From the NCBI GenBank assembly GCA_022539475.1, contig VCMS01000069.1, forward strand, positions 186,001 to 250,000: DNA of 64,000 nt. The letters run 5' to 3'. Under the pieces are notes generated by a model. It was not told the origin of the DNA. It saw only the letters and a list, made by a program, of their open reading frames with translations, and searched no databases. The stretch comes from Gracilaria domingensis. Taxonomy: Eukaryota; Rhodophyta; Florideophyceae; Gracilariales; Gracilariaceae. Position numbers and translations under genes: made by a program. How positions within the stretch are numbered: the first letter of the stretch is position 1; every line of letters begins with the position of its first letter. Positions 9,986 through 30,439 of this stretch are shown in pieces.

Positions 9986-9995
9986 CGTTCGTCAT

Positions 9996-11600: not shown

Positions 11601-13868
11601 ATGGTCTACTACTGTACACATAAGAAGCGTGGGTGCCCCTTCGTTACTCGCCGAGGAGTCTTATCCCTTCAACAGCATGTCAACCATTGCCCGTTTCGTC
11701 TGAAAGCAGCGCTGGAAGACGACAATAGCCGGCCCATTCGGAGAAGCAAGCGTCTCAAGCTTTCCGCGCCCGCGCCCGCATCTTCCGAAACGGTCACTGC
11801 CCCTTGTCGCCTTCCCGAGCCTCCAGTGTCCGAGGACATCGTCGACCCCACTCCGTGCGCCCCTCCCATTCCGGACACTTCGCATTGTGTTTCTCCTTCC
11901 CCGGGTCCCGCGTCATTAGAGCGAGAACACGGAAGCAGTTTCCGCCCAGTGCCTTCTGAGGAGGCCCTCGGTGATTTGCATATGGATTATCTCACGGTTT
12001 GTCTGGCTTCAGTAGCTTCCAACCTTGGTCATCGTGAGGCGGACGAGCTAATTGGGCTACTTCGGGACCCGCGATTCTCGCAAAAGCGATTCAACGAGAC
12101 CATAACAAGTTCCAAGCGCTGTACAGAACTGAAGAAGGCCATTTTCGAACGATACGCCTCAAAGGACGGTTTCAATCGCAGAACTGTCTCGCCAGAAGGA
12201 TGTAAGTTCAGCGCCACCCTCTACACGAGAGACCCCGTTCAGACACTTGTGAAACAGCTCCAGTTGGCTAACAACGAAAACACATTCTTCCACCCTATAC
12301 CTCAGACCCACTCCACGAAAATATCTCACCCCATGTCCGGCTCTCTCGCAAGAGACGCCACCTCAAAACTTAAGGAAATGGTCATGGGCTCTTTGGATAG
12401 TAGAATAGTGTGGTACTCCCAAGAAATAAGTTACAGTGAATCTTTCGTAGGTCTTCTGCAGGTATACACCGATAAGTCTTCAACAACTCTAAAGCAAACA
12501 TCGGTTACCGCCTATCCTCTTCACCTCATATTTCTCAACTTCTCCGACCAGCTTCGCCGTAAGTGTATCCGTGATGACCTCACAGTAGTGGCATACTTCC
12601 CTACCACACTGATCGAGGTTTCCGCATCTGAAGCAGACGCAATGCCATTTGTTTCTAGCAAGTCTCTACGCGAGTCCAGGATGCAAATCCTTCAAGAATC
12701 TCTTCGTCAAGTCCTGGAGCCCATTCTAAATCTCACGCAGAAAGGTTTTCAGTTCATCGGCGAAGACAAACTAAGTCGAGTGTGCCATCCTCTGCTTGCA
12801 AGTTATTGTGCGGATATTCCTGAGGCTAAGGACATTCTGTCTATTCTTCATGGGACCAAAACGGAAAGCCCGTGTCATAGATGCAAAGCCCCTCGCTCAT
12901 CTTTATGCAGTCCTATTCCCACCTCATTCAACGGACGTTCTCAAAAGCACACGAAAAGCATCCGAAAGACATACACAGCTATCTTGCAACATGCACAAAA
13001 AGACGAGGCGGAAAGACGTCCACGTCGTGCGAGGGAGAGGAGATCTCAAGCGGATACTCTGATGCGTTCAAATTCCATATCTCTCATTCCTTCGTTCCTC
13101 GAAACTTCCGTAAGCCTTGGAATGATCCCGGGATTGTCTCCATACAGTCTGTTCTCATTCGAACCATTACACAACTTGCATCTCGGCATCTCAAAGTTGA
13201 TAAAAACGGCCACAATCGAGAGACTGCAGTCAGACACCCTGTGCACCACATTAGGAACATCTGCATCGCGTTCATTTCGAACGATACGCACCCAACTCCT
13301 CAACCATGCAAACGCAATTCTAGCTGCCATAGAATGCGNNNNNNNNNNNNNNNNNNNNNNNNNNNNNNNNNNNNNNNNNNNNNNNNNNNNNNNNNNNNNN
13401 NNNNNNNNNNNNNNNNNNNNNNNNNNNNNNNNNNNNNNNNNNNNNNNNNNNNNNNNNNNNNNNNNNNNNNNNNNNNNNNNNNNNNNNNNNNNNNNNNNNN
13501 NNNNNNNNNNNNNNNNNNNNNNNNNNNNNNNNNNNNNNNNNNNNNNNNNNNNNNNNNNNNNNNNNNNNNNNNNNNNNNNNNNNNNNNNNNNNNNNNNNNN
13601 NNNNNNNNNNNNNNNNNNNNNNNNNNNNNNNNNNNNNNNNNNNNNNNNNNNNNNNNNNNNNNNNNNNNNNNNNNNNNNNNNNNNNNNNNNNNNNNNNNNN
13701 NNNNNNNNNNNNNNNNNNNNNNNNNNNNNNNNNNNNNNNNNNNNNNNNNNNNNNNNNNNNNNNNNNNNNNNNNNNNNNNNNCATGCACACCTGCTGTTTA
13801 AGAGGACACTACAAAAAAGACGTCCCAGAGGAACAGCAACGGCTGTGAGAGACTATTCGCTCCATTGA
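11601..13868 (+). CDS. Plavaka-like transposase, with internal assembly gap
   Basis: I start at ATG 11601 because the residues that follow, MVYYCTHKKRGCPF and then HVNHCPF, form the Cys/His zinc-finger-like N-terminus usual in these transposases. The frame is open to 11505 upstream. A proline/serine-rich linker follows. The core then shows the family pattern: VYTDKSSTTLKQTSVTAYPL (about residues 287-306), a segment like NFSDQLRRKC, an ADIPE segment, a CHRCKAP zinc-knuckle and EPLHNLHLGI. From 13339 to 13781 the sequence is unknown. The 29 codons after the gap belong to this frame only if the gap length is right. Plavaka elements are best known from fungi and also occur in some algae and animals. 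Confidence 0.75.
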   Translation: MVYYCTHKKRGCPFVTRRGVLSLQQHVNHCPFRLKAALEDDNSRPIRRSKRLKLSAPAPASSETVTAPCRLPEPPVSEDIVDPTPCAPPIPDTSHCVSPSPGPASLEREHGSSFRPVPSEEALGDLHMDYLTVCLASVASNLGHREADELIGLLRDPRFSQKRFNETITSSKRCTELKKAIFERYASKDGFNRRTVSPEGCKFSATLYTRDPVQTLVKQLQLANNENTFFHPIPQTHSTKISHPMSGSLARDATSKLKEMVMGSLDSRIVWYSQEISYSESFVGLLQVYTDKSSTTLKQTSVTAYPLHLIFLNFSDQLRRKCIRDDLTVVAYFPTTLIEVSASEADAMPFVSSKSLRESRMQILQESLRQVLEPILNLTQKGFQFIGEDKLSRVCHPLLASYCADIPEAKDILSILHGTKTESPCHRCKAPRSSLCSPIPTSFNGRSQKHTKSIRKTYTAILQHAQKDEAERRPRRARERRSQADTLMRSNSISLIPSFLETSVSLGMIPGLSPYSLFSFEPLHNLHLGISKLIKTATIERLQSDTLCTTLGTSASRSFRTIRTQLLNHANAILAAIECXXXXXXXXXXXXXXXXXXXXXXXXXXXXXXXXXXXXXXXXXXXXXXXXXXXXXXXXXXXXXXXXXXXXXXXXXXXXXXXXXXXXXXXXXXXXXXXXXXXXXXXXXXXXXXXXXXXXXXXXXXXXXXXXXXXXXXXXXXXXXXXXXXXXHAHLLFKRTLQKRRPRGTATAVRDYSLH
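13339..13781. other. assembly gap (443 N)
   Basis: This is a run of undetermined bases inside the transposase gene. Its length is an assembly estimate, so reading frame across it cannot be trusted. Confidence 1.
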
Positions 13869-14855
13869 TCAGCACGGACATGTAAAAAGAATGGAAATGG
13901 CAATTACTCCTTACCAGCGTAATCTTATGTTTACCAGAACTTTACACACAGCTTCCTTGGTTTTGCCATGAGACCCGGGTATCATTCACTTTAGAGCTCT
14001 TCAACATGTGTTTCAAGTATGTCCAGTTCAAAAACATGGACTCGTTAGAGAGATGTTCTCAAGTAGAGACAACAAGGCGTTCTTGAATAAAATCTCAAAT
14101 TGATGACCAGCCCCTCCTCCCTTTCCTCAGTCTCGTAGAAAGAAAACACTGGGAATGAGCACTCTATTACATACTTCCCAGAAAAGACAAGGATAACTCT
14201 GGTGAATTCGGCCCTTGTGAAAGGCGGTTCGTCCGACTCTGAACACTATCGATTCGTCTTCTTAGCACTTAAGCTGGGACGACCCAAATACCCCATATTC
14301 CAACGTGTCTTCGCTTCTCCAGCATTTGGTCAGTAGAAAGCCAAAGTTTTCCACTCTATTGGTAAGCGGAGAGATTCAGAGAAACTTTGGTTGCCCAGGT
14401 AGTCGCTCTGATTCGAATATCTCTCCTTCATTCTGCACTTACCGGACCAGAGTGGATTTGTCCGGTATTTCGAGGTTTTACCCCCCGCAACAAAACGACC
14501 ACAATTTGAAATGCATAATCTTCGGTGCGGTACAAACGATGAAAGAACCACACTCTTCCGTTCCCCTCGTCATTCCAAAGCGGAGACTATCGTAGAGTTA
14601 ACTCCTTGGTACGGATGGTTCCGGCTTCTGCACTACAGGGAACTGTCCATGTTGTTCGATCAAACTACCCTGCTCCACCTTTTGTCCTCCACTTCAATGG
14701 TTTCACAACCGATTCTACATCAATCGATTCTATCATGATTCAGATGAAGGACCAACTGAGCACGTTGATCTTGTACAGCCTTAAACATTAAGGGCTCCAT
14801 CCTTTACATGTTCACCTTTGGTGCCTTTTCTTTGTCCTTGTTACTTCCGAATCGT
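13869..14855. other. stretch without a recognisable gene
   Basis: It probably contains the 3' end of the Plavaka-like element up to about 14295, then sequence lying beyond the end of the minus-strand coding remnant. Only short open frames exist, and none resembles a known protein. Confidence 0.5.
14273..14285 (-). repeat. right subterminal repeat, inverted GGGTCGTCC motif
   Basis: GCTGGGACGACCC is the reverse complement of GGGTCGTCCCAGC and matches the three left-end copies with one extra C. It is used here to estimate the right limit of the element. Confidence 0.45.
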
Positions 14856-17347
14856 TCATGTCCATTTCCTTGAACTCCATATCCCCTTCCTCGCATTCAC
14901 CAACGAAGCAATCGCTAATAGACCCCAATCTTCGCTCACACTGTCAATAAAAAATTGTTCTTTCACAGTGAGGTAAAGTCTTCCGTTCGACGGCATTCGA
15001 TATCCAAATGTAGCCTCTCTCATGTCATTACCAAGAACCTTGGTCCAATCTTCCGTTGTCGTTCCAAAATTATGAAACTCGCTGGAATTGGTCCTCAAGA
15101 CACGTTGCCTAACATCCCCCAGAACATTCTTTAAACACAGAGGTAGCAGTTCGGCAAACTTCTTTGTAAACAGTTTCTGTCTCTGGCCACCCCTTGACAC
15201 ATCCGTACTTAGAAGGCTCACAACCGTCAACACCCAAGCGTCCAAACGTGCGAGCAACAGTATTGTGCCATCTAAAAAGGTGCCCGTATCCTTTCTTCCA
15301 CATCATACCCAATAAACTCCTTCAGCACTTGTACCCCGACACGGTTTCGGAAGAACAAGTCTTGATCTTCCGTCGGCATATCCTCGACATTGTCCGCATT
15401 GGAGTACTTTAGACGAAGAAATGGGGCTTTTCTCCACCATGAAGTGTTCGTACACCATTTCGTCAAGACGCAGTATGTCTCCTGCGCTTCCTTCAACTGC
15501 ATTGTGAGTTCGTCAGCATTCTCTTCTACCAGCTTTGTTCTTCTCAAATCAGATCGTACCCCAGGAGCAGAAATAGTTTATCCCTCGTATTTCTCTTACG
15601 AACGCCCACGACGTCACTCATGGTCTGCCGCATTCTCTGCCTAAGGCACATATCTGCACAAAGTTCCAGTATACACCTGTCGGTAAGAGATGCTTTTCTA
15701 ATACCTTCCCAGCTCAACTCCTTCAACTCGCTTTCAACCATTTCTTCAGCAAAGCATCTGGCCCCCCTCTACCGACGGTGTGAACATGCCAAAACTGCCC
15801 AAGAGCTCCACGGGTTTTTAGGAACCATGTATAACCACCTTCCTCCGGCTCAATAAGCCCTTCCCCACTCTCAGTTGCGTCTTCCACCTTCTGCAGGTTA
15901 CCCCAATTTCGGGTGAGCGACTCACCTTCGAGCATAGCTCACTTGTTTCTCTCCTTGCCCACGTCAGCATGTTGTGATACACTGCTCGAGCAACCCCTCG
16001 AAACTCGTCGCACACCTCAATTTTATGCTTCTTTCGACCTGTCTGCCCAGTTCACCAGCACGTGTACTCCTATCTCCCTCCTGTTTCAGTGCCCCCTTAG
16101 CCCTTCAATGACTAGATCCTTCTCTTCAAGCCTCTTTTTCAAAGCCGTACTCTGCTCTTGGCGACCTTCACTAGAATTCCCCGAACCATCAAGTCCTCTT
16201 GTAGCGTCTTAACCTTTTCTTTCAAGCAATTCAGTTCATTTAAAAGATCAGTCTGTTCATAGAGTTGAATTCACACCAGTTGGATATCTTCCGTATTTCC
16301 CTAGCTCTTCGGCGACAGGCCCCGGTAATGCCGCAGGATTCGGTGTTATTTCGTTATCGGAACTATCCTCATGTCCATAGCCTTAGACACGAGAGGCTGC
16401 AGGCGTTCTGTGTCCACCCTTGGCACGGCTCCGAGCTCCAACTCCCGTGTCTGTCCTCCTCCATTGCATGGTATATCAGATGAATTGGGCCTCGTACGAG
16501 CTCAACGGCCCCCGTTCTGGAAAGAGGGGAAGGTCGAAAGTAAATCGTCTATCATTGTCTCTCGATTTCTTATTGTCTTTCTCCCTTGTCCGGACCCATT
16601 GCGAGGCATATACGATTCATAGCGGCCCCAGTTCTAAAAGACAGGATGGACGTGACGATCTTAATATACTAGGCTCTCACGACTTCTCGTCATTGTCCTT
16701 GTTGTCCAGATCCACTGGGCGGCGTAACCCGCGCCCCAGTAGCTCCGGTCTTCGATATCGGCCGGGACATGAAGGTTTTGGTGTCATACGAACCTCTTCG
16801 TTCCAGTTGTCATGCCCTCCTGTCCTGACCCGCTGGGCCGAGTTACCTCATCTTCTTGAGGAGCAGAGACAGATGCACGATTTGCATTATCGGCAGTTGA
16901 CGGCACGACATCGTTCGCTGATCCACGAATTCTTGACGCAATCCCGGAAGACGCTCCGCTGCGAGATGGGCGAGAGAGTCCTGTAGAAGGACGCCCACTG
17001 ACTCTCTCCTTCGTCGAGGACGACTTCCGTTTAGGAAGTGCGGTGCTTGTAGCCTGATTCGTATCATCCGATGCTCTTCTCTTCTTCTGTCCACTCTTGT
17101 TCCGCTGCGTACTATTCGCTTTTCGGCGTTATACCATGTGTGGAGATAAACGGGTAATGAAACGAAATTGTTGGGGGGGGAGGGGTGGGGGGGGTGCATG
17201 GTTCAGATATTCCGGGAGACTCCGCAGTTCCTGCTTTTTAGGAATTTGAGGTGCCCAATGGGTCGCAAATATCGCCGTTACAGATGAAGAGCTCCAGTGT
17301 ACATGTACAACAACGCGTATTGCAGCAGCTGCAACATTCACAAGCAT
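14856..17347 (-). pseudogene. disrupted, unidentified minus-strand coding region
   Basis: Read on the minus strand, coding-like pieces follow one another in changing frames. First comes a basic, serine/threonine-rich region that includes QKKRRASDD and KRKSSSTKER (about 17110-16900). Next comes a coiled-coil-like stretch with STALKKRLEEKDLVIEGL (about 16190-16080), then a Trp/Phe-containing part (15550-15270). Last is a compact C-terminal part of about 130 residues ending at 14856. The breaks are too many for a working gene unless several introns are present. It lies directly downstream of the methyltransferase/SET gene in the same orientation and may belong to the same cassette. I do not recognise the family. 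Confidence 0.4.
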
Positions 17348-17375
17348 ATTTACTTTCTATTCGTACTGAACTCAT

Positions 17376-20300
17376 CTATTGCTCCAATGTCAGAGCCCAG
17401 TCCCAGGCGTACTGCTCTCCGTAGTTGAAATACAACTCTTCGCCCCTCTCAATATCTCTTACTGCTCTACAACGAAGTAGAGCATAGTTAGAAAGGTCGA
17501 CTTAAACTGTATCACGGACTTCGCTTCCACCACCTGCACATTGGCACTTCGAGTCCTGTTTGACCGGGGCTCCGATAAATCGGATCCCCGGCATGATATC
17601 CGGCGTCGTTAATGTAGCCCCCGATACAAAAAGGCCCGGACAATGTAGACTTCGCTCTCCTTTCTATCCTGAGCCTGTCCTGGTCTGTTCCTCAGGTGCA
17701 GAAACTCCGTACCAGTCACAGTGACCATCATAGAAAACAACTTGTACCGCACTGGAGTTGCTCCGAGACAGCCACTTCCATACGTTAAGTGTCTTTCCTT
17801 CCGGTTCGTCAGATCCGTGTATACCAAAGTTCCATAGAAATGACAGATAGTTTCCCCAGCCAATATCTTATGTTCCGTGAACACCCCCATACCAGCACGG
17901 GATGTCGAATCTTAGAAGATGCTATATGTAAGCGATAGCGATTGGCTTCAACAGTCAACAGCATATGCATATCCATAGATTCAGAGCTCCTCGGTACTTC
18001 CCCTCCCAAAGATCTACAGTACGCTGTCCACACTTGTCGACAAAGTCCCAGTCCTTCCAGTATCTTCCTAGGAACTGAGTAATATGTCCAGGCATCACTT
18101 GGTACTGGGGTAACCAAATGAGCCTCCCATTCAAGCCGACCTCGGTCCCGATGTGGAACCCGTTCATAAGTCGTTGAAGCCGCATCCACCACCTCCTGTT
18201 CAACCAGGATGTCATTCTTCCCCCGCGAATAACTTCGGCCATAAGAGTCGTTAATGGTGCTTCGCATGGCTGAAACATGGCCTATTCTTCTCGCACCCCA
18301 AGAACTTCCTATGCTTTGTCAGCGATAGGCACGCCATACCCGTAGAAAAAGTTCCGCGAACATGTCCATGACAAGATCACCCGGTCTTGTGAAGCGACAT
18401 ATCAACTCCTTCATCAACTCCCTCGACTTCTGCTCCGGTCTTATGTACTGCCCACCTGGTACTGAACTACCTGGCTCATGTACCTTCCATGTCAACCACT
18501 CCCCCGCTCTCGGTTTTGGCACCCGGTCAATTACATTCCTGTTAGCCGGGAAAGTAGAAGGAATGAAATTGTTCTCCTCAAATGGAGTAAGACTGGCTTC
18601 CTCCGATGGTCGCAATCCACGCTTCACCCCATGAACGGCGTACTCCGTTACGGCTGTATCCCAAACTTCCGTGGATTCCCTCCAACATTACTGCGATCCC
18701 GTATGAACACCAGTGGATTCGCATCCACTTTAAACGAAGGCATGAGTTCTGGTTTACCTTCGCTTCCAGCTTCATCTTTCGTACTCGCCGTTTCCGAAAG
18801 TATCCTGTGCCAAAATGAAACTGTGCCATGGCACAGAATATAATGAAGTGCCCACCTGACCGAAGCGCGGAACTTATTAAGTCAGCCGTACGGATCATGT
18901 CATCCTCACTGAAGACATCGTGACCACTATTCCGTTTGTTCCTCTTCCTTCGAGTGTTAAAGGAGGGTCTGTTAGGACAAGCTGTGCCTCACCCCATAAA
19001 ATCTCACTCTGATTCACAAACGTTTCGTGTGTGTGCCTCAGGTCCTCATGTCACAGTTGTACGCTACAAAGTGTGACTTTCTCATCCCCTTCCACACCTT
19101 GTCCATATTCATTCGAAGGAGACTGGATATCCCCTTCATGGGCGGCTCAATACCAGTCTCTTGGATGTTGTAACCGCAACCCGAGATTCATGCTCCGCAA
19201 GATTCACCGGCTTCTCGAAGTCGTCGCTATCGGAGCTCACGAGGTTCATATACTCTCGACGAGGTGGGGGTGGGGCAGACTTGGTCGAAGAAGGTTCGCA
19301 TTACCGGAAGTTTTAGGGTTTTCGTCAGTTCAATATCAGGTTTCGCGTGAATGCCGACATGGAACCCTGCCGCATGACGCATATCCTGTATCGGTTTCCA
19401 TAGCAACTCCGAAAACTTCTGAAATCGAGCAGGCAACTCACCGGAGTCAGAACCAGATACGGTATCCATCCGTATCTCCGAAAACTCTATCCAGTTCCTC
19501 ATCTGATCAGCCCGTAAGCTATAGAGGCTATTGTGGGTGCATACGGTTTCGAGGTCTGTCAAAAATTCCTTAGCCAGTATTCGGAGGTTTGTATCGCATT
19601 CATCACTCAAGGTCTCCACCGATCCACTAGTACTGCTCTGTGGCACATCGTTTGTGTTGAATCGAGTACTCTGGCTCGGCGGGGCATAACCAGACTCCCG
19701 TGTCTCTAGCGCCGTATACTTCAACGTCTGCATATTCATGTAAATGTATGGTTTCACCATATGCTGAACGTTCGTGTATCCAAGATGAGCCGCAAAACAA
19801 CTCCATGCCCATACGACCTCACTGATAGCGAATCCCAGTCGATCACAGTTGTCTTTGGAGAACGACGTAAAAGTGGGTATGTACACAGATGGTGCATGGT
19901 TCATTTTTCGTTTCTTTTTCGGTTGTTTCTTCTTCATCATTCGGATGTTGTCTTCTCTCCCATTATGTGGCCGAGGTATGATAAGTATATAACGACCTCA
20001 AATGGGTTCACAGCTGTTGGTGGGATGAACATGTCGTCTTCAGAACCTGCTTTCTCCTGGTCATGAAATAACCAACCAGGCATCGCACCGGTAGGTATAT
20101 ACCATATCCATAGAGAGAAGAGAAAATCGCGCAGTCTCTGGTCCTCATCCACGTCCTTCTTGTCAAGAAGCTTCGTACAAGATATCGTTGTTCCACAGGT
20201 TTGTTATTCACAACACTCTTTCGCAGCTGTTGCAGTGTCAAGTTCTGCAGGTTCTTGGAGTTAGTGGCTCCTCAAACATCTTCCTTGCCTCCGGAATATC

Positions 20301-20489
20301 CTTATAGTTCTCGGCGCAGAACTCTATTAACCCTCTAAACCCCACGTCCCGTGGGCGATCAGGGCCTCCATCGCTGTTTGCCAAAGCATCGCGAAGAACC
20401 AAGAAAAGTCTGACATATGCATGGAACGCCGGAGGCGGAGCACTCATGTCGATAGGATGTATCTCCTCTCCAACATCGGTGGAATCCAT
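17376..20489 (-). pseudogene. amino-DNA-methyltransferase/SET fusion gene, disrupted
   Basis: Minus-strand pieces in several frames together span about 1040 codons. The N-terminal third (20489-19230) is not recognised. Around 18970-18940 comes the amino-methyltransferase motif IV, LTDPP, with FNT next to it in another frame, followed by ALRSGGHFIIFC. Near 18400-18300 come KSRELMKELICRFTRPGDL and a motif I region, FxGTFSTG, split by a frame change. Motif IV precedes motif I, the permuted order seen in many bacterial N6-adenine/N4-cytosine methylases. From about 17890 there is a SET-like start, GVFTEHKILAGETICHFYG. It ends with AVRDIERGEELYFNYGEQY just before a TAG at 17378-17376, which is the classic C-terminal SET motif. 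The gene is broken at several points. Its head faces the ParB/dioxygenase gene at 22176. The first ATG lies only 30 bp from TTTAAA, so MSAPPP at 20447 may be the real start. Confidence 0.7.
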
Positions 20490-20504
20490 CGCTTCAGCGC
20501 AAAC

Positions 20505-20605
20505 AACGGAGGCGAGCCTTTAAATGGCGACTTACGCTGGGCACCCCCGATTTCGGCAGCTCCTCCCAGCGCACTGCCAGTCTCGTCCGTGTCCGTGTCC
20601 GCTCG
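20505..20605 (-). promoter_or_regulatory. left arm of divergent inverted-repeat promoter
   Basis: About 100 bp here are nearly identical, inverted, to 22010-22114. TTTAAA at 20519-20524 is a TATA-like element for the minus-strand methyltransferase/SET gene. The preserved arm includes the GC-rich block upstream of it. Confidence 0.75.
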
Positions 20606-20737
20606 GAGCGATAGCGTCGCGTGTCGGCCACGTCGCGATTCGGAGCTATTGCAACGGTCCCGTATTGTGCTAAAAGTCGCGGATCAAGTGGGTGTGAAGC
20701 GCTAGTTTTTTCTAGTTTGATATATGTGCACGGCGTG

Positions 20738-21826
20738 TGCAGCGAAATCACTGCCGGAAGTGCCGGGAGGAGTGTTTTGGGAGGTCTCTGGAGGGTGTCA
20801 AAAATCGTCCAAAACGTGCCCGCGGGCGGGGGGGGGGGGGGTCGGTCGTGTTAGGGTGGCTACCCTAACACGACCGGACCCCCCGCCCGCGGGCATAAAA
20901 TCGCACATTTTTCAAAAATTCGTCGAAAACGTGCCCGCGGGCGGGGGGGGGGGGGGGTCGGTCGTGTTAGGGTAGCTACCCTAACACGACCGGACCCCCC
21001 GCCCGCGGGCATAAAATCGCACATTTTTCAAAAATTCGTGGAAAACGTGCCCGCGGGCGGGGGGGGGGTCGGTCGTGTTAGGGTAGCTACCCTAACACGA
21101 CCGGACCCCCCGCCCGCGGGCATAAAATCGCAAATTTTTCAAAAATTCGCCCAAAACGTGCCCGCGGGCGGGGGGGGGGGTCGGTCGTGTTAGGGTAGCT
21201 ACCCTAACACGACCGACCCCCCCCCCGCCCGCGGGCAGGTTCTGGCCACATTCTGGCACCCTCCGGGGACCTCCCAAAACACTCCTCCCGGCACTTCCTG
21301 TACCCACTGCGTCACCTCAGTGCCCCATCCCGGAAATTAGGGAGTGTCTGGATGGTGGAGAAGACGGGATGGTCACCTCAGTGCACCATCCCGGAAATTA
21401 GGGAGTGTCTAGAGGGTGAAGATGACGGGATGGTGCACGCACTAACTTCCTGTACCCACTGCGTTACCTTGAAGGTGACGCAGTGGGTACAGGAAGTGCC
21501 GGGAGGAGTGTTTTGGGAGGTCTCCGGAGGGTGTCAAAAAATCGTCCAAAACGTGCCCGCGGGTGGGGGGGGGGGGGTGGGTCGGTCGTGTTAGGGTAGC
21601 TACCCTAACACGACCGACCCCCCCCCCCGCCCGCGGGCACGTTTTGGGCGATTTTTTGAAAAATGTGCGATTTTATGCCCGCGGGCGGGGGGGTCCGGTC
21701 GTGTTAGGGTAGCTACCCTAACACGACCGATCCCCTCCTTCCGCGGGCACGTTCTGGCCACATTCCGGTGCCTTCCCGGGACCTCCCAAAACACGCCGCC
21801 CCGCAGTGATTTCGCTACACCCGGCC
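20738..21826. repeat. array of six GC-rich hairpins in a larger inverted repeat
   Basis: Six long palindromes are centred near 20860, 20970, 21083, 21195, 21600 and 21714. Each is built as CCCGCGGGC, a G-run, TCGGTCGTG, and the core TTAGGGTAGCTACCCTAA, followed by the mirror image. Four of them repeat with a period of about 112 bp, separated by an AT-rich spacer, ATAAAATCGCACATTTTTC. The whole array is bounded by inverted arms that begin AGCGAAATCACTGC (near 20740) and end with the complement (near 21820). Near-copies of the sub-arm GGAAGTGCCGGGAGGAGTG also lie near 21290 and 21494. At 21314-21432 there is a separate direct repeat of about 60 bp, two copies. Confidence 0.85.
21447..21500. repeat. 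inverted repeat between the two hairpin groups
   Basis: CTTCCTGTACCCACTGCGT and its complement, ACGCAGTGGGTACAGGAAG with one mismatch, face each other around ACCTTGAAGGT. It links the left four-hairpin group to the right two-hairpin group. Confidence 0.75.
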
Positions 21827-22009
21827 GCCGGTACGTTGGCGCCGCTGTCCACATGTATTTGCGGGAGTAGGCTGTACATGGAAGTGAATGAGTGTACTCT
21901 TGACTACTATGCAAAGCATTTGAAGAGCATGATTAAAGAACGCGACCATTGCTGGCGTGAGTCATCATTGCGCGAACTCCACGACTCTAAAGCGTACAAT
22001 CAGCGTGCG

Positions 22010-22114
22010 AGCGGCCACGGACAGGACACGGACGAGACTGGCAGTGCGCTGGGAGGAGCTGCCGAAAGCGGGGGTGCCCAGCGTAAGTCGCCATTTAAAG
22101 GCTCGCCTCCGTTC
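22010..22114 (+). promoter_or_regulatory. right arm of divergent inverted-repeat promoter
   Basis: This is the mirror copy of 20505-20605. TTTAAA at 22094-22099 lies 77 bp before the ATG of the ParB/dioxygenase gene. The same ATTTAAAGGC string occurs before BTAF1 (60167-60176), which supports its role as a core promoter element in this genome. Confidence 0.75.
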
Positions 22115-22175
22115 TTGTATCGTCCAGAGCGAGCGTATTGTTGATATACACCTTTCACTGCAATAGCTGTTCAAC

Positions 22176-25100
22176 ATGAAGCCAACTCGTGTTCGAAAGC
22201 GTACGCAAAGCGTGACTCTTCGCACTCGGCGGAGCACTCGATTATTGCAAGGTGGAATGCGGGTTTCTCTGCAGATGGATATTGAGGATGAAGGAAAGGT
22301 GATAGTCGGGGAAGCGTTGTTGCATGGAATTGGAAGTGTTCTACGCCGCGAGTTGCTCGGGAAGCAATTGGACCCAGGTCTTGTGGTGGTTCATAATATT
22401 CTCATCAGTCGAAGCGGTCAGACGTTCTACCCTTACCGGGCGGAGGGCCTGGATCTTCCACAATATATCCAGGATCTCCGGACGGCCGCTCCTTGGGATG
22501 GGAAAATGATGGAACCGGTGGCAGCCAGCATTCCGGCGTCCAAGCGAGGAACGGGGAGCGCTATGAGTGAGGTGATGACGCCGACAAGCCGCACGGAGCC
22601 AATTCGAAGTTCATCAACACCGAGAGGTAGCGCATCAGTAGCACCTCCGCGGGCAGGTCCGTCGTCTATTACGAAGCGGTCTATGGAGACGAGAGCATCC
22701 CCAGCTACGAAGCGGACAGGTCAAACAAAGTCTACCTCCGCTACGAAGCCCACTGCGTCGAAAAGGGCTTCTCCTGCGATGAATCAGACCGTCGACACAA
22801 GGGGAACTTCTGCGTCGAAACAGACGGTTCAGCAGGGGACGGCTGTGCAAGAGGAGGAAGATGAGATCATGAAAGGTCCCCTTCCAGACGCGGATGCGCA
22901 ATCCGCGCAAGGAGCTGGTCCATCTGTACCCCAAACTGCACCAGAAACTGCGGAGCAGCAGGACGATGACGTTGTGCTTCTATCCGCAAGAATGGCACGT
23001 TCAAGTGTTTCTGGCGAGCGGTCTGGAACACAAGGGACACCTACTCGGAGCAAGACGTACAGACGAATTCGTCAGAAGGTACCAAAGGTGAACCCCAATC
23101 AGTACCGGATGGTTGTTGTTACTGTTGACATCACTCTGGTGGACACTCCGCCCAATTTACTCCGTGGAGTAAGTAAACGCCACGTTGAAGCCCTTGTGAA
23201 GAGTATGGAGGAGCGGGGGATATTGCAGTCGATGGGTTCTCCAGTGGTGGCCTTACAAGATGCTACTACGGGAGAGAGGGATACTGACAAGGGACGCCTA
23301 ACGAAGAAGTGCTTCATTGTAGATGGTTTGCATCGTCTGAAAGCTATACAATATTTGGCAGGGACTGGTGCACCGAAGTGGAAGCGATTAGCCAAGTTTT
23401 GGCGTTGCAATCTGCTGACACGAAGAGATGGGAGGCCCATTGGGATGAAGGAATTGTTATGTGTTGCTTCGTACCTCAATGAGTCGACGAGTACCATGCG
23501 AAGGATGATGTTTGCAGACAAGATACACTCTATAGTTAGTGTGGTCGCCATTCTAATTGAAGATGTTGAGGGGGTGACGCCGGCAGACGTGGATCCTGCA
23601 GAAGTGACAGAAGTGTTGAAGGAGAGCCAACTGATTGGGACTGTGCAAGAGCGTCAGTACCTGAGATATGCCAATGTCGCCCTGCAACTCATGTCTCGTG
23701 AGGGAATGCTGGCCCATTTCGAGGATATATGTGAGACTGTGAGTGACATAGGTCTCACACATCTGTCCCATACTCCGCTATATGTTTTGGATGCCGAGGA
23801 GTTTTCCTTCATTCTTGATTGTCTTCAGATGTTTCTATTGAAGGGCAAGTCGACGAAGACGAAGCAATGGAAAAGCTTTGAGGAGGTTCGAGGTTTCTTT
23901 TATGATAGAGCAGTGTCTCTGTTCCGCGCGGCTCGAGCAGTGAGGAATGAACTGAACGAGGAAGAGTCCATGGAAGTGTTCCTGAAACGCGAAGTCAGTC
24001 TTTCTGCTCCATCGAATGAAGATGACGTTGAAGACCCAGACAACAACGCAGCTGTGTATCAGTTCCTTTTGGGACAAGTTGTGAACTTCAACACATTGCC
24101 GCGTGTTCGGAGCAGGACGAACTCAATTAGAACTGCCACGACTTCCGTTCAGAATCGATTGCGGACGATGCTCAAGGTAATTCCGCCCCCCGCACCAGTG
24201 AAGCAGTCCGTGACGAAGAGGAGGACTCCCGCTGCTGCTGCTGCAACATCTGCCAGTGAAGAAGGGGAGCCGCGAAGAGGTGCACGAGAACGGGCGCAGG
24301 TGAGTTATAGGGAAATTGAACACGGCCGAAATCGAGGTGCCATAGAAGTTCTGGATTGCTCTGATGAAGAACGGCGGGCTCCGCCGAGGAAGAAACGGAG
24401 AAAGACTTTCACACAACAGATGAGATCTACTCTGAACAGCATGACACCGGATGACCTGATGTCTCAACTAAATGAACATGTGCTGAGAGGAAGGTCGATG
24501 AAGGTTCAGTTCGTGGCATTGGGAGAGGGAGCGAATGCAGAGATCGCAGGCAGTTCTGCATTTGTGGATGACGATGAGCTTCTTTCTGTGACATTTCCAC
24601 GGGTTGTCACCGTCGAGAAAGATGCTGCGCCAGACGATCAGCAAGAGACAGGTGGGGGGTCATTTGATGACGAGTTACCTACAGCTCTTCCGGAATTTGA
24701 GGAGCACGGACTTGTTCGAGGTGACCCATATGATGGCCCACCGAACCCATCATGGTGCGGGTATGCCAGGCTGAGACCGCAGGAATGGCAAGGGAAAAAC
24801 GTAATTGAGCACAAGGACCCCTGGCTCAGAGTCATTCACTTGCCGAAGGGACATAGGTCGGAGCTGCTAAGTGTCTCGAATCTCAGAGATGTACACCATC
24901 TTGTCTTTTGGCACGCTGCAAGGGCTGAACATCGCCTACGGGCGGAGACATTTGGTATGCAGTATCCTCGTACTCGACCGACAGGTATGGATGATGAAGA
25001 GGTGCTGTGGGTTGCTGCGAAGCAGCATGACGAATTTGGGCAAATGTTCTTCGCCCGAATGCAAGCTGAGCTAAGGCAGAATGGATATTGCGTGCTTGAT

Positions 25101-25889
25101 GGCTTTGCGACGGATAATGGTGTCCCTAAATGGGAGGAGTTGGAAGAAGTTCGGGAGTTCGGAGATGTGTCGGGGAAGTTGGTGGACTTCTTCGAGAATG
25201 AGTATGGAGCGATGCCGGATATACGGAAAGGAGAGGAACAGAAGTCGTTTGTTCAAATAATCAACGATGATGAAGGATGGAAGGACGGTAGCGATGGACC
25301 ATTTGAGGGGAGAGTGATGTCGACACGTTGGGGTACGGTGGAGAAGCCGGAGGATAATGAGGAGCTCAGGTGGGTTGTAAGGTCGCGTGCTTTACTTGAT
25401 GTTCGAATGGGTACAATTGCTGCGGCTTTGGGACTATGGGACAATGAAAGGGAAGCTGTGAAGATGTACACTCCGAAAACTGGTGGTCGATTTCTGGGGA
25501 CGACGAGAAAGTGCAAGCGCCAAACGCTGCACACCGACTTCAGTGGTCTGGTTACGAAGGAAACAATGAATACTGGCAACCCCGGATACTTTGTAATGGC
25601 CTCTGGGAAAGAGGGCTTTCCTCTCTGGGTGAGCGCTGGAAGCCATCAACTGGTGGGGATGAAGAACCAACAGTTGCGAGTGATGTCGGAGGTGTATCCA
25701 GCGAAGAAGATAATCATCCCACCGTACTCTGTATTCGTGGGCCGTGGTGATGTGACAAAAGCTGGAGCAAGTGGGAAGGACAAGGTGGATAGGCCCGAGT
25801 CTATGGATTTGCTGGTTAGATACCACATGTACATGGTACCAGAGGGCTACGCACTACCTGATGCTGTTCATCGGGTGCGGGATTTCTGA
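22176..25889 (+). CDS. ParB-like/2OG-Fe(II) dioxygenase fusion protein, copy 2, probably truncated
   Basis: The frame encodes 1237 residues. Residues 1-110 form a basic N-terminus not recognised. Residues 110-305 are a Ser/Thr/Pro linker in which short phrases around SATK/SPATKR recur. From about residue 312 there is a ParB/sulfiredoxin-like domain with DGLHR at 383-387. A helical middle and a basic stretch, PRKKRRKTF, follow. The C-terminal 350 residues are a double-stranded beta-helix dioxygenase with the HxD pair at 1119 and 1121. At the distal iron ligand, residue 1195, copy 2 has lysine where copy 1 has histidine. TGA at 25887-25889 replaces an arginine codon of copy 1 and removes the acidic tail of about 68 codons. 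The fold suggests oxidation of a nucleic acid or protein partner, but this copy is likely inactive in that half. It is head-to-head with the methyltransferase/SET gene. Confidence 0.75.
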   Translation: MKPTRVRKRTQSVTLRTRRSTRLLQGGMRVSLQMDIEDEGKVIVGEALLHGIGSVLRRELLGKQLDPGLVVVHNILISRSGQTFYPYRAEGLDLPQYIQDLRTAAPWDGKMMEPVAASIPASKRGTGSAMSEVMTPTSRTEPIRSSSTPRGSASVAPPRAGPSSITKRSMETRASPATKRTGQTKSTSATKPTASKRASPAMNQTVDTRGTSASKQTVQQGTAVQEEEDEIMKGPLPDADAQSAQGAGPSVPQTAPETAEQQDDDVVLLSARMARSSVSGERSGTQGTPTRSKTYRRIRQKVPKVNPNQYRMVVVTVDITLVDTPPNLLRGVSKRHVEALVKSMEERGILQSMGSPVVALQDATTGERDTDKGRLTKKCFIVDGLHRLKAIQYLAGTGAPKWKRLAKFWRCNLLTRRDGRPIGMKELLCVASYLNESTSTMRRMMFADKIHSIVSVVAILIEDVEGVTPADVDPAEVTEVLKESQLIGTVQERQYLRYANVALQLMSREGMLAHFEDICETVSDIGLTHLSHTPLYVLDAEEFSFILDCLQMFLLKGKSTKTKQWKSFEEVRGFFYDRAVSLFRAARAVRNELNEEESMEVFLKREVSLSAPSNEDDVEDPDNNAAVYQFLLGQVVNFNTLPRVRSRTNSIRTATTSVQNRLRTMLKVIPPPAPVKQSVTKRRTPAAAAATSASEEGEPRRGARERAQVSYREIEHGRNRGAIEVLDCSDEERRAPPRKKRRKTFTQQMRSTLNSMTPDDLMSQLNEHVLRGRSMKVQFVALGEGANAEIAGSSAFVDDDELLSVTFPRVVTVEKDAAPDDQQETGGGSFDDELPTALPEFEEHGLVRGDPYDGPPNPSWCGYARLRPQEWQGKNVIEHKDPWLRVIHLPKGHRSELLSVSNLRDVHHLVFWHAARAEHRLRAETFGMQYPRTRPTGMDDEEVLWVAAKQHDEFGQMFFARMQAELRQNGYCVLDGFATDNGVPKWEELEEVREFGDVSGKLVDFFENEYGAMPDIRKGEEQKSFVQIINDDEGWKDGSDGPFEGRVMSTRWGTVEKPEDNEELRWVVRSRALLDVRMGTIAAALGLWDNEREAVKMYTPKTGGRFLGTTRKCKRQTLHTDFSGLVTKETMNTGNPGYFVMASGKEGFPLWVSAGSHQLVGMKNQQLRVMSEVYPAKKIIIPPYSVFVGRGDVTKAGASGKDKVDRPESMDLLVRYHMYMVPEGYALPDAVHRVRDF

Positions 25890-26093
25890 CCCACGTTTGT
25901 CAATTGTGACGGGGAGGAGGAGGGGGAGGATGAACTGTTGTCCGATAAGGAGGGTGGGGCGGTTGACATGGACGAAGACCAAGTGGTCGTGGAGATTGGT
26001 GTGGAAGCGGACGCCGGTAGAACCGAAGTGCTCGAGAGTAGTAGTGATGACGATTTGCCAATAATGAGGCTGCGAGCGCCTCGAAGTGGATGA
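25890..26093 (+). pseudogene. orphaned acidic tail of the ParB/dioxygenase gene, copy 2
   Basis: These codons match the C-terminal tail of copy 1 (2790-2993) in the same frame after the premature TGA. The tail is rich in Asp and Glu. Confidence 0.7.
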
Positions 26094-26357
26094 GAATGAG
26101 ATGATTAGTAAATTATGTGTGTCTTGCGAGTATTAAGAGTAGTATACTATTACAAGGCTATACATATGAACATAGAAAAGGTGCGGCAGGCTGATAATTG
26201 AACAAATGTCAAACGTCTTTGGTCCAGTTGCGTCTAATTGCAACATGCCAAATGCTCGGTATCGTTACCATCATTGGTGGCACCAGTCAATTCGCAATTG
26301 AACATGTAGCGTCCTAACACTTCTGAAACTGCACTTAAGGTTGCTTTTAAGAGAAGT

Positions 26358-27269
26358 ATGAAACTGAGAAGTCTATGCAGTTCCTGTCTATGCTGTACTT
26401 GTGACAGTATGGTCACTGTATCAGGAAAAATGGCAGAGGAACAGAGAGACTTGGCGGAAATTTCACCCAATACTTTGTCTAAGTTCATATATGCCAATGG
26501 TTACGGTATATTAAGTTCCGTTGATGGAGCGTTGAGAAGAGAAGGAGAGTCAGTTCTAGAAGACGTTGTGAAGTGTATGAAGTTCATTGACGAACGTGTT
26601 GGTTTCGGACTTGTCACAGGGGGTGATGTGGGCGACGTGGAGGGGAAAATGGAAGGACTCAGAGACTATAAGTTTGGTGTCTCGGCGAATCATGGAGCTT
26701 TCCTGCGTTTCTCTGACGAGAGGGAAATTAAGGGTGCATTCAATGATCACACCCTTGACCACACTGTTGACGGACTACTGTTCCTGGCAAGGGATTTGAA
26801 TAGGAGGCATGGTATTGTGAATGATGACGAGAAGGGGTTCGTGGAGACCAGAAGTGATAGTGGCCTTCCCAATTTCGTGTACAACAAACTGTGGCAGTGG
26901 AGAGAAGAAGTGGATTCTGCTATTGGGGACCTGTTGCAGAAGATGGATGCGTTTGTTATCTATCCCGGCGATAAAAGTTGCGAAATTGTGGACAAGCGAT
27001 ACACAAAAGGAAGCGGAGGAGAAAATCTTGTGGATAATGAACCGAGATTTATTGATACGGATGACGTCGTGACGTTCGGAAGTGCTTTGAGCGACGGGCC
27101 TTTGCATGAGGTAGGCGTGTACGGCGTTCACGTCAAAGAAGATTGTATCCCGGGTGGAGTACACAACCTGTTCGAAAGCGTGGAGGATGTACATTCGACA
27201 ATTATGTTGGTGGCTCTGTTGTACGGCTACGAGGAAAAGCAGCACGATAAAAACCACCATGATTCATAA
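26358..27269 (+). CDS. HAD-phosphatase-like pseudoenzyme A, copy 2
   Basis: The predicted protein has 303 residues and is clearly related to the convergent HAD gene at 27322-28272, with matching NGYxxxSxxDG, CMKxIxxRVGF, SGLPNFxYN and DGPLxE blocks. HAD motif I reads SVDGA (residues 54-58). The nucleophile Asp is Ser and the following Thr is Ala, so phosphoryl transfer is not expected. MAEEQRD at residue 25 aligns with MYNSEVR of its partner and may be the true start; the extra N-terminus is cysteine-rich. This copy is intact while copy 1 is frameshifted. A role as a regulator or as a scrambled relic of the active partner is possible. Confidence 0.75.
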   Translation: MKLRSLCSSCLCCTCDSMVTVSGKMAEEQRDLAEISPNTLSKFIYANGYGILSSVDGALRREGESVLEDVVKCMKFIDERVGFGLVTGGDVGDVEGKMEGLRDYKFGVSANHGAFLRFSDEREIKGAFNDHTLDHTVDGLLFLARDLNRRHGIVNDDEKGFVETRSDSGLPNFVYNKLWQWREEVDSAIGDLLQKMDAFVIYPGDKSCEIVDKRYTKGSGGENLVDNEPRFIDTDDVVTFGSALSDGPLHEVGVYGVHVKEDCIPGGVHNLFESVEDVHSTIMLVALLYGYEEKQHDKNHHDS

Positions 27270-27321
27270 AAGGGTATTGAGATATATACGACACTTTTAT
27301 TACTGAGATCTCATATCCTAG

Positions 27322-28272
27322 CTAAGTATTACAGGCATCGTAGCACTTGAAACAAATTCCAAGAGCATTTCTAAACCATTGACACTTGCATTTTCTGTAC
27401 CCGTACAGTTCTGCCACCCTTCTGATGGTCTCATGCACGTCCTCCACCCCATCAACAAGATATGTTACCGCTGCTGGATGGTCTTCTCCCTTCACATGAA
27501 CTGCCAAGGTTGCCATTTCATATAGAGGGCCATCATTGGAAGCATTCCCGAAAGCAACGATTAAATGTGTGTCGAACTGGGGGTCGTTTTCAACCAAGGC
27601 TAGCGCCCCACTATTTTTCGTGAAACGAATGTCCCCTATGTCACAGTTTTCATCTTGAGGGTACGCAACCAGGTTCGGAAAGGATGTCAACACTTTTGAA
27701 ATACCGGAGTTAACTTCTGTTTTCCACTTCGACAGTCCATTGTACGTGAAGTTAGGGAGTCCACTGTCTTTTCTAGTGCTCACCACTGCTTGTTGACGCT
27801 TTTCGTGAAGTCCGTGCGATTCATTTAAGGAGAGTGCAAGTCTCTCAAGTTCGGCTGCACATCTTTCGTAACCTTCCCTGTCAAGGTCCTGATCAATTTC
27901 GGTACCATTGGATAATCTCATCCGTGCGCCTTGGTTTCCAGAGATGCCAAAAGTGTAGCCACCCAGGTGCTCCATGAAACTCTCGGCATCCTCTATATCT
28001 CGCCCAGTAGCAATTACGAAACCAACGCGTGCATTGATGTACTTCATGCATTTGACTGTTTCGGCAGGAATGTTCTCCCCAGCTCTTTTCAGAGTACCGT
28101 CAATATCACTAATCACGGCGTAGCCATTTTCGAATATTTCGTTAGCCAGCTGCTGAGGAGTTACTTCTTGGGCTCTAACTTCTGAGTTATACATGTTTTG
28201 AAAGCTTTCGAAACGGTTCGTTTTGCAAATGAGTGTGGGTATACGAATGAGAAGGATGTGATTGATGTTCAC
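27322..28272 (-). CDS. HAD phosphatase B, trehalose-6-phosphate-phosphatase-like, copy 2
   Basis: The predicted protein has 316 residues. HAD motif I is VISDIDGTL, with the nucleophile Asp56 and the acid/base Asp58. ATGRD follows in the motif II region, then GISGNQGARM and a late FGNASNDGPLYEMA, which stands in the place of the metal-binding motif IV (GDxxxD). The layout is closest to the trehalose-phosphatase/Cof-type sugar phosphatases, but the substrate is not certain. MYNSEVR (28194) is an alternative start that aligns with the paralogue. The C-terminus is cysteine-rich (KCKC and CFKCYDAC). It ends 52 bp from the convergent HAD A gene. The copy-1 version is frameshifted. Confidence 0.78.
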   Translation of the reverse strand: MNINHILLIRIPTLICKTNRFESFQNMYNSEVRAQEVTPQQLANEIFENGYAVISDIDGTLKRAGENIPAETVKCMKYINARVGFVIATGRDIEDAESFMEHLGGYTFGISGNQGARMRLSNGTEIDQDLDREGYERCAAELERLALSLNESHGLHEKRQQAVVSTRKDSGLPNFTYNGLSKWKTEVNSGISKVLTSFPNLVAYPQDENCDIGDIRFTKNSGALALVENDPQFDTHLIVAFGNASNDGPLYEMATLAVHVKGEDHPAAVTYLVDGVEDVHETIRRVAELYGYRKCKCQWFRNALGICFKCYDACNT

Positions 28273-28820
28273 AAGGTGTTTCGTAGTATAAAAAGAGTCT
28301 AAGAACGACCATATACGGGTATTGTAGTACTGTTTTAAAACGTTACTACGACGAGAAGCTTTTGCATCGATTTGTAGTAAAGAAAGGATGATTTAGTCAT
28401 AAATTATATGTACGGGTTCAAGTGGGTAAAGAAAACTGTAAATATCTTCAACATGAGCTTAGAAATCAAGATCAGTAAAACAACTTCCATTTAGGTTTGA
28501 AACCCATAAAAGGTTTACCTTACTTTATACGGGTGCCTCAAGTATTGCAAAGGCTTAGTTCTTCAGAAATATCACAATTTCGTACTTGTTTCGTTATTAG
28601 TATCGTGCACTTTAATGATGTGGAATGACCCTTTTCCATCTAGCAAAAACTTAGCCAGGTATTAGTGATAAGGGATGTAGGATTTAAAGGGGCATATTTG
28701 AACCACAGAAGGACGAACAATATAAGTAATGTAATAGGAACAGGTCATTTCGATAAAGTAACTTTTATGTTTAACTATCTCTAAAAGGTTTACAACACCG
28801 AAAAGTCATGTGTTCTAACC
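28273..28820. other. intergenic stretch without a gene
   Basis: This is non-coding sequence nearly identical to 5165-5709. Nothing further is recognised. Confidence 0.7.
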
Positions 28821-29723
28821 TCAAAGCTGGGGGAATGGGGTGGGGGATAACTTTTCCTTAACAACGTTGACGTAGTTCGTATGAAAAGGAGCGTGGTCAG
28901 CGCCTACGATGTTTCTTTCTTTGCGGGAAAAGTCGTAGAAGTACGCGTTCTTAAACTGAAAGTCGGAGAAAGAAGTAAGGAAGCCAACGAGAGTTTTCCC
29001 ATATGCAAGAAGTCGCCCAACGGTCTCTTCCAGGTTGAAAGTAGTACCTGTCTTAAGCGAAACTATCTTCAACAGCTCTTTCATTATTGTGAGCACAACC
29101 GTACTGCACTCCGTAGCGACTACGTCCATAGGAATGAACCCTCTTGAGGCCCCGACGATGTTGAACGCTGATAGCCACACGAGCTTCTCATAATAGCTTA
29201 CGAGAAATGTGTCTTCGTCGACAACCCCGCAAGTGAGACCCATACACCTAAACCTGTCTGCAACGTTGGAGGCCCACTTTCCTGTTGCGAAAGTGAGACC
29301 ATCCGGACTTTGAGGAGTGACACCATCCTGCGGAGCTGCGTTTCTTGAGGGGACACCAACGTATAGGACAACTTTTGAACATGTGTCCACACCGAGCTTC
29401 GAAACCAATGGTATGATGTCTCCATTCTGGAAGAAAACGAGATTCTCTCTGAGCGAATAAGGGCAAGCCTGAATTACGGTCTCCAGGGTGTTCGTTCTTT
29501 CACAAACTAGTATCGGTACATCAGAAAGATGAGAGGTAGCAGCCATGCTGCAGAATTCGTGTGCGGAAATGACCGTATCTTCTTCGTTCGCCAGCATGGT
29601 ACCTATACGCCCCCTTCCAACAATAACGGCCCGAGTCCTTCGGGCGGGAGATGAGGCCTGAGGGACGTCAGAGTATCTGGGACTCGGAGGCGGAGTGGGA
29701 GGCATGTCGCACTGGGAGTTCAT
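28821..29723 (-). CDS. ketopantoate reductase-like NAD(P)-binding protein, copy 2
   Basis: The protein has 300 residues and is the counterpart of 5710-6612, with some 20 residue differences. The GRGRIG turn keeps the GxGxxG pattern (copy 1: GRGLIG). EKLVWLSAFNIVGA is unchanged. The start MNSQCD is chosen to match copy 1; the frame is open for 67 more codons upstream. The gene diverges from the epimerase gene, whose promoter side is deleted in this copy. Confidence 0.65.
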   Translation of the reverse strand: MNSQCDMPPTPPPSPRYSDVPQASSPARRTRAVIVGRGRIGTMLANEEDTVISAHEFCSMAATSHLSDVPILVCERTNTLETVIQACPYSLRENLVFFQNGDIIPLVSKLGVDTCSKVVLYVGVPSRNAAPQDGVTPQSPDGLTFATGKWASNVADRFRCMGLTCGVVDEDTFLVSYYEKLVWLSAFNIVGASRGFIPMDVVATECSTVVLTIMKELLKIVSLKTGTTFNLEETVGRLLAYGKTLVGFLTSFSDFQFKNAYFYDFSRKERNIVGADHAPFHTNYVNVVKEKLSPTPFPQL

Positions 29724-30118
29724 TGCAAGTGTTCGAATCTTTTTGTGTGACGATAGAAATGGAAGATGGGGCGGAGAACTGCTGGGGTAAAGAGTGATAC
29801 TTAAGTAAAAACGGTTCGGAAGCGCAGAACGGGAACATGGTTCACTTTGTGAAAGTGAGCGAAATGTATGATATGTGATTGTACTGAATGAATGATAGGG
29901 CTTGTATGAGACGACAAGCCACAAAGTGTGATGATGTTTTATGAAAGGTAGGTGGAAGAGTAGAAAGTGTGCAATGAATGAAACTGATTTCGAACCTGAG
30001 TTGTAAAGTAGTTAAAGTACGAGTTACGGGGAGCTTGAATACAAGATGAAAGGAGCCATTTTGGCTTCATAAATGACGTGAACGGGTTCTATAGCTTCAC
30101 TTGGATTGCCATAATTGA

Positions 30119-30439
30119 AAGGATGGAGTTGGATTGCGCCCGAATACGTCTATAAAGGTCGTAGAAGCACTTATGAAGGAAGGAGTTGTAGACATGTTAT
30201 TGTTGATGACGGTGGAGCCAGGGTTTGGAGGACAGGCGTTTATGGAGGGTGTTCTTGATAAGGTGCGACATGCAAGGGAGTTGTACCCAAGAATAGGGAT
30301 ACAGGTGGATGGGGGTATTGGACTGAGTACTGTGAAAGGAGTAGTGAAGGCCGGTGCAAACATTTCAGTTGCAGGATCTGTCATCTTTGGCTCGAGTCAC
30401 CCAGCTCATGTCATAGCTGGTTTTCGAAAGGTTGGTTAG
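30119..30439 (+). pseudogene. rpe: ribulose-phosphate 3-epimerase, copy 2, 5'-truncated
   Basis: Only the C-terminal 100 residues remain. They start within LRPNTSIKVVEAL and include VEPGFGGQ, DGGI and a proper end with GSSHPAHVIAGF. The promoter and the first 140 or so codons are missing. The deletion joins sequence matching 7007 to sequence matching about 7449 of copy 1, at short AT-rich matches. With copy 1 also broken, no epimerase gene in this window works. Confidence 0.88.

Follow-up and report, generated by a model that had tools for sequence, protein, structure and literature searches.

A divergent methyltransferase/SET and putative oxygenase gene pair within a multicopy Plavaka-type DNA transposon of the red alga Gracilaria domingensis

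Results

The locus described here lies in a 64,000-nucleotide stretch of the Gracilaria domingensis genome (assembly GCA_022539475.1, contig VCMS01000069.1, positions 186,001 to 250,000 of the forward strand), which is called the window below and numbered from its first nucleotide. Two divergent genes occupy its central part. The minus-strand region, at approximately 17376..20489, encodes an amino-methyltransferase with a DPPF motif and permuted motif order followed by a SET domain, and its frame is broken in the window copy. On the plus strand, a single open frame at 22176..25889 encodes a 1237-residue protein with a weak ParB-like segment and a putative 2-oxoglutarate (2OG)-Fe(II) domain. 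An initial annotation, made from the sequence alone, had proposed a head-to-head gene pair about 1.7 kb apart with mirrored promoters, and this arrangement is real: the start codons are 1.69 kb apart, and beside each of them lies one arm of a 93-nt inverted repeat, at 20502..20594 (minus strand, methyltransferase side) and 22024..22116 (plus strand, putative dioxygenase side), the arms being 98% complementary. Both arms were found in 13 other copies, as expected from the initial annotation if paired copies share their promoter arms.

The spacer between the two genes holds, at 20847..21725, six palindromes CGTGTTAGGGTAGCTACCCTAACACG (five exact and one with 1 mismatch, no strand assigned) set in G-rich repeats, that is, 6 sites of this 26-nt sequence in the window against 0 expected. 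Genome-wide there are 1329 sites (up to 2 mismatches; control 0). For 49 of the 50 palindrome sites listed, a listed end of the transposon described below is found no more than 14 kb away, with the site on its inner side; the remaining one has a transposase site 2.5 kb away. The G-rich repeats extend over 20798-21752, with a 111-bp period in 20798-21228, around the palindromes, which contain TTAGGG/CCCTAA.

The gene pair belongs to a strongly amplified DNA transposon of the Plavaka type (CACTA/EnSpm-related). A boundary search of the window's own assembly (77.9 Mb, 680 contigs), which is the genome referred to throughout, placed the left edge at window 9452-9457 in all 39 scored matches besides the window and the right edge at 32473-32486 in 39 of 39 other scored matches. 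These common edges, together with the terminal sequences, define copy A at 9455..32473 (23,019 bp, no strand assigned), which begins with the terminal inverted repeat CGTCTGT (9455..9461, plus strand) and ends with ACAGACG (32467..32473, minus strand). With up to 2 mismatches, 563 left and 558 right ends were counted in the genome, and none in reversed controls. Copies of the element are 90-99% alike; the plus-strand protein gave 37 scored genome matches including the window (90-100% identity), and the minus-strand region 33 long matches (at least 2 kb) besides the window, both counts being lower bounds. The transposase gene lies on the plus strand at 11505..14775, its 3' end being approximate and inferred from the frames of copies L017 and L019. 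Window 11505-13868 matched PF18759 with E 5.7e-19 (69 bits, cut-off 26.3), and the same was found for a 10.3-kb copy. The gene is interrupted in the window by a 443-base assembly gap at about 13339-13781, and other copies run on to about 14775. In a check for the C(2)C and H(3-4)H motifs that Plavaka transposases have between the second D and the last E, CHRC and HLLDH were visible by eye in the transposase frames, with the catalytic acids unplaced.

Target duplications were sought in 20 left/right end pairs hand-picked from the ends listed. Matching 2-bp direct repeats, a length within the 2- or 3-bp range of Plavaka elements, were present in 10 of these 20 (chance about 1 in 16), namely in eight of nine pairs up to 12.5 kb and in two of eleven longer pairs (>13.5 kb). 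One of the two long pairs with a repeat, the 21.35-kb C6 span, has a second left part inside; mispaired or nested ends, or rearrangement, may explain the long pairs without duplication. The 10.3-kb copy (C8), bordered by a CA duplication, derives from the 23-kb element by internal deletion: it retains the transposase, the palindromes with their G-rich repeats and approximately the first 308 codons of the plus-strand gene, and the methyltransferase gene and the ParB-like and 2OG parts are missing. In a 20.15-kb copy bordered by a GT duplication, the plus-strand gene is present with a broken frame, together with the first 1.9 kb or more of the minus-strand gene, a stretch that contains the DPPF site. 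The gene pair thus sits within a unit flanked by a target duplication. The initial annotation had taken the pair for a candidate modification cassette multiplying as a unit. Its multiplication as part of a multicopy 23-kb transposon, in fixed divergent orientation, agrees with the second half of that proposal; a stand-alone cassette was rejected, since the pair is separated from the common ends by about 8 kb and 6.6 kb, and the transposase and further genes share the element.

No target duplication was seen around copy A itself, which adjoins at 9454/9455 a second copy of the element (copy B, 1..9454, plus strand) that is cut off at the window edge. Positions 1-7006 of copy B are 96.4% identical to 23099-30115, and further matching blocks reach 9454; the remainder of copy B was not found to the right of copy A. 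Insertion with deletion, or a scaffold join, are candidate causes of the junctions at 9454/9455 and 32473/32474. An Rfam search of window 9000-33000 gave nothing at gathering thresholds.

The minus-strand region was aligned with that of eight further copies in this genome, seven of full length (L010-L016) and one partial. The window copy is split into many short frames: compared with the majority columns of the seven full-length copies, it is 23 bases short, at 22 places, and has 1 base too many; in the other copies between 0 and 9 bases are absent. Four of the 22 deletion places are common to L010 and 18 are private to the window copy, so introns were rejected as the cause of its many methyltransferase breaks. 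It was also observed that 17376-20489 is riddled with missing bases and the neighbouring 3.7-kb frame is clean, which would fit either real decay or an unpolished assembly.

Both domains of this region were recognised in other copies. The reading of L016 matched Pfam N6_N4_Mtase (PF01555) with E 2.3e-15 (57.6 bits, cut-off 26.7), and in this protein DPPF precedes FAGTFSTG, which is the permuted motif order; the downstream frame of L011 matched SET (PF00856) with E 1.9e-8 (35.1 bits, cut-off 22.4). The window copy missed both cut-offs (methyltransferase 20.9 bits, SET 15.8 bits). Frames from the 5' end have 684 (L011), 679 (L014), 813 (L015) and 862 (L016) amino acids, and the SET region is covered by a further frame of up to 253 amino acids. 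The methyltransferase/SET gene of the initial annotation was thus upheld in its domains and not as one continuous frame, as an unbroken frame with both sets of motifs is present in none of the seven full-length other copies. L015 is free of indels against the majority columns, and there too the motifs lie in different, overlapping frames. In the seven copies the methyltransferase and SET frames, both on the same strand, overlap or directly adjoin each other, and the frame changes near G-runs whose length varies among copies. The frame change between the two domains is possibly an assembly error, an intron, a frameshift, or the border of two genes; a fusion of methyltransferase and SET in one gene is likely, possibly with an intron between them.

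In searches of the PDB the methyltransferase matched DpnA (3.8e-8), CcrM (1.8e-6) and also MboIIA, and an N4-cytosine enzyme at 0.18. Against PHROG it matched phrog_67 (E 1.3e-23), and weak matches to phage methylases comprised 116 records (best E 7e-8 among the matches listed); no relatives of it were found in viral and bacterial/archaeal contigs. Bacterial N6-adenine enzymes carry DPPY and most N4-cytosine enzymes SPPY, according to the relevant part of PMC8885841. Because DPPF resembles the N6-adenine-type motif given there, adenine rather than cytosine is most likely the target. The SET domain gave a weak PDB match to KMT2A/MLL1 (0.0086), a likeness that hints at an activating mark and has a score too low to lean on.

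The plus-strand protein is more difficult to classify. Its ParB-like segment (about residues 309-401) matched phrog_3264 with E 0.0018 over 44 residues, a weak match, and neither this segment nor the 2OG part had a Pfam match at E up to 10. The ParB domain of the initial annotation is accordingly reduced to a weak similarity. The C-terminus has an HxD...H...R pattern, with HTD at 1119-1121 (H1119, D1121), His 1195 and an Arg about 20 residues further on in other copies; it is on this motif that the protein is called a putative 2OG-Fe(II) protein. The double-stranded beta-helix (DSBH) dioxygenase proposed initially was not confirmed as a fold by profile, PDB or structure searches, so that of the four domains submitted to profile searches the methyltransferase and SET exceeded their Pfam cut-offs, the ParB-like segment was weak and the dioxygenase had no match. 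In particular, no TET/JBP profile match was obtained, and the 2OG and ParB-like parts had just weak, unrelated matches in the PDB. AlphaFold models had a predicted local distance difference test score (pLDDT) of 29 with five near-identical copies and 32 with a shorter single sequence, too poor for a fold search, and an hhalign comparison with two PhyH proteins encoded in this genome gave 0.1% probability, both profiles being thin. No relatives of the 2OG domain or the whole protein were found in viral contigs, bacterial/archaeal genomes or phages, and none of the ParB-like part in viral contigs.

A genome census of motif sites counted 196 methylase sites (up to 2 mismatches), 246 dioxygenase sites and 555 transposase sites (both up to 3 mismatches), with 0 in the reversed controls. 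His 1195 is encoded at all 100 dioxygenase-motif sites listed of the 246. Pairing was assessed on the contigs up to C191, which hold 78 exact methylase sites (among 100 listed of 196), with the 100 listed dioxygenase sites as possible partners. A listed exact dioxygenase site lay 4.9-8.3 kb away in divergent orientation for 34 of the 78, and for none of them was a listed exact dioxygenase site found within 9 kb in a non-divergent orientation. The divergent orientation of the pair is therefore fixed, in line with the initial expectation of many paired copies. The 44 methylase sites with no listed partner may have a mismatched partner, a deletion, or a contig end nearby.

The ratio of non-synonymous to synonymous change (dN/dS) in pairwise comparisons among copies was 0.35 for the methyltransferase, 0.52 for SET and 0.56 for the ParB-like/2OG gene, with 0.48 for the transposase N-part and 0.57 and 0.63 for two other genes. 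In 2000 runs of a neutral simulation that used the base changes observed, a synonymous excess as high as that observed occurred in 2 runs for the methyltransferase, 11 for the whole ParB-like/2OG gene and 15 for its ParB-like part. The excess was not significant for the DSBH part (143/2000), SET (371/2000) and the transposase N-part (226/2000), and the linker had none (978/2000). The methyltransferase and the ParB-like/2OG gene are under weak purifying selection; the copies tested are mostly best query matches, so that intact ones are over-represented, and sites within a copy are linked by relatedness.

Neither CpG depletion nor an excess of CpG transitions, the expected footprints of CpG methylation, was found in the element or its right flank. 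For the element and its parts the CpG observed/expected ratio ranges from 0.90 to 1.03, and for the right flank from 0.96 to 1.01. Transition rates were 0.0729 at CpG and 0.0724 at other C sites in nine copies of the 2OG region, and in seven copies of the methyltransferase region 1 of 356 CpG sites had a transition against 10 of 1290 other C sites. TpG+CpA observed/expected is 1.06-1.18 in the element including both genes, 0.91 in the spacer and 1.17-1.19 in the right flank. These values do not support the view that the element counters 5-methylcytosine (5mC) at CpG; methylation may lie outside CpG, or an eraser may work with full efficiency.

The element carries further genes. An accessory gene, by eye of low complexity and coiled-coil-like, lies on the minus strand at approximately 14778..17190, with frames in L012, L016, L017 and L019; no Pfam family reached its cut-off in the two pieces scanned. 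Two HAD-like genes face each other at 26358-28272: a HAD-type hydrolase gene on the minus strand (27322..28272, PF08282 E 9e-14) and a degenerate paralogue on the plus strand (26358..27269, PF08282 E 0.073, below cut-off), which has SVDG where the hydrolase has DIDG and looks like a dead paralogue. An open frame on the minus strand (28821..29924) has by eye a Rossmann-like GxGxxG stretch, and another near the right end on the plus strand (30978..32006) is by eye coiled-coil-like; neither had a Pfam match. Copy B contains a ribulose-phosphate 3-epimerase frame (window 7237-7743, PF00834 E 2.5e-40), of which just a 260-bp stretch is left in copy A and in the 10.3-kb copy; the element thus seems to have captured a metabolic gene.

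Discussion

We consider it somewhat probable that the divergent gene pair serves the transposon itself as an accessory epigenetic module. The methyltransferase would put an amino-methyl group on the element DNA, most likely as N6-methyladenine, which is favoured because of the DPPF motif. The SET domain, as part of the same protein or as the product of an adjacent gene, would methylate lysine on the local chromatin, which would thus be held permissive for the shared divergent promoter and the transposase gene. The ParB-like/2OG protein, possibly docked at the palindrome array, would act on such methyl groups by oxidation, and the mark would in this way be limited or edited. Escape from host silencing, or control of it, would be the net result. 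The enzymatic roles in this proposal are read from the domains, and the interplay of the enzymes is conjecture.

Several observations weigh against this proposal. In the window copy the methyltransferase frame is broken, and residue 1195 of the plus-strand protein is Lys where nine other loci have His, so that the distal iron ligand is lost. The methyltransferase and SET motifs occupy separate frames in every full-length copy read, the 2OG fold is backed by no profile or model (Pfam, PHROG, NCBIfam and PDB gave no dioxygenase match for the plus-strand protein), and the ParB similarity is weak. The synonymous excess does not reach significance in the DSBH part, in SET or in the transposase N-part. 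Few of the end pairs longer than 13.5 kb have a target duplication, and one such span perhaps comprises two elements. At most transposase-bearing sites no methylase or dioxygenase motif can be recognised (555 against 196 and 246), so that the pair is dispensable for many copies, unless it is supplied in trans.

The lack of fold support for a dioxygenase, together with the palindrome array between the two genes, could also be read to mean that the plus-strand protein is a ParB-like DNA-binding regulator acting on the palindromes, with a C-terminal domain that is no dioxygenase. We regard this as unlikely, as the copies read retain both HTD and the distal His, and the His is encoded at each of the listed dioxygenase-motif sites. 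Slightly less probable is that the genes are passive or decaying cargo, captured and hitchhiking with no help to the element. The broken window copy, a frame interruption in each of the seven other copies when the whole minus-strand region is considered, the absence of the pair from many element copies and the metabolic gene pieces also aboard (HAD, and ribulose-phosphate epimerase in copy B) are all in line with such a view; what argues against it is the synonymous excess in the methyltransferase and the ParB-like part, absent from the linker, even though the copies tested favour intact ones.

In analogy to TET-like anti-silencing, the 2OG protein might instead strip host 5mC from the element, a role that has been proposed in TET-bearing transposons of fungi, with the methyltransferase/SET acting separately. 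Plavaka, KDZ and other fungal transposons bear TET/JBP genes, as described in the pertinent passages of PMC12730594, and the slightly high TpG+CpA values in the element and the right flank point in the same direction. The TET/5mC analogy, which was already part of the initial annotation, is nevertheless weakened because there is neither CpG depletion nor an excess of CpG transitions, CpG observed/expected being near 1, and the plus-strand protein matched no TET/JBP profile. An efficient eraser could leave no footprint, and we hold this explanation to be decidedly unlikely.

It is tempting to speculate on a private chromatin identity system, in which the methyltransferase/SET protein would write a DNA amino-methyl and a histone mark at once and a ParB-like oxygenase on parS-like palindromes would edit the marking, all copies thus being labelled, and regulated in trans by those that have kept the genes. 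The ParB-like protein beside a palindrome array does recall parS, which we take as a lead; we judge such a system quite improbable. Least probable of all appears a hypermodification pathway as in phages or base J, in which methylase and then oxygenase would build a modified base protecting or labelling the transposon DNA. The divergent genes share the 93-nt arms and the methylase is similar to phage enzymes (phrog_67), which would suit such a pathway; against it, the frames scanned with Pfam included no recognisable glycosyltransferase or other additional enzyme of base modification.

The proposed accessory epigenetic module can be compared with several known systems. Many fungal DNA transposons, including Plavaka and KDZ, carry TET/JBP genes (Kojima 2025, PMC12730594, in the passages on these elements). 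The present element resembles the TET-positive fungal Plavaka described there in that a Plavaka transposase is combined with a putative oxygenase gene and the target duplications are of 2 bp. It differs in its ends, CGTCTGT..ACAGACG instead of the TGT..ACA or CATCA..TGATG of fungal PlavakaA/PlavakaB, and further in that no TET/JBP profile is matched and that an additional methyltransferase/SET gene and further cargo are present in a length of 23 kb. SET genes are found in HarbingerS and MuDR elements of oomycetes, as cited in PMC12730594, and the SET methyltransferase on a DNA transposon is a common trait; those elements belong to other transposase superfamilies, and the passage concerned does not mention a DNA amino-methyltransferase. 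Plavaka giant repeats have been described in Amoebidium, for which the authors note red-algal matches (PMC11244446). Many genes in these repeats are tyrosine recombinases, and the section on them makes no mention of the gene pair.

The bdelloid N4CMT and SETDB1, as presented in part of PMC8885841, are similar in that a bacterial-type amino-methyltransferase in a eukaryote is tied to histone methylation. The bdelloid system has SPPY, a chromodomain, and SET in separate proteins, whereas DPPF, a same-strand SET and a transposon are found here. With the bacterial and phage PF01555 enzymes (DpnA, CcrM, MboIIA) the methyltransferase shares the PF01555 domain, the permuted motif order and the DPP motif, and unlike them it has a downstream SET region, a long N-terminal region and a eukaryotic transposon as its setting. 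No description of this gene pair was found in a literature search of titles and abstract openings, subscription papers being mostly outside it. A transposon with these enzymes would link the marking of DNA to that of protein within a selfish element. With about 560 end sites in a 78-Mb genome, N6-methyladenine or N4-methylcytosine as a real host mark is open to a simple long-read test. Single epigenetic enzymes on transposons are known; an amino-methyltransferase with SET and a divergent putative oxygenase is, within the literature searched, a new combination.

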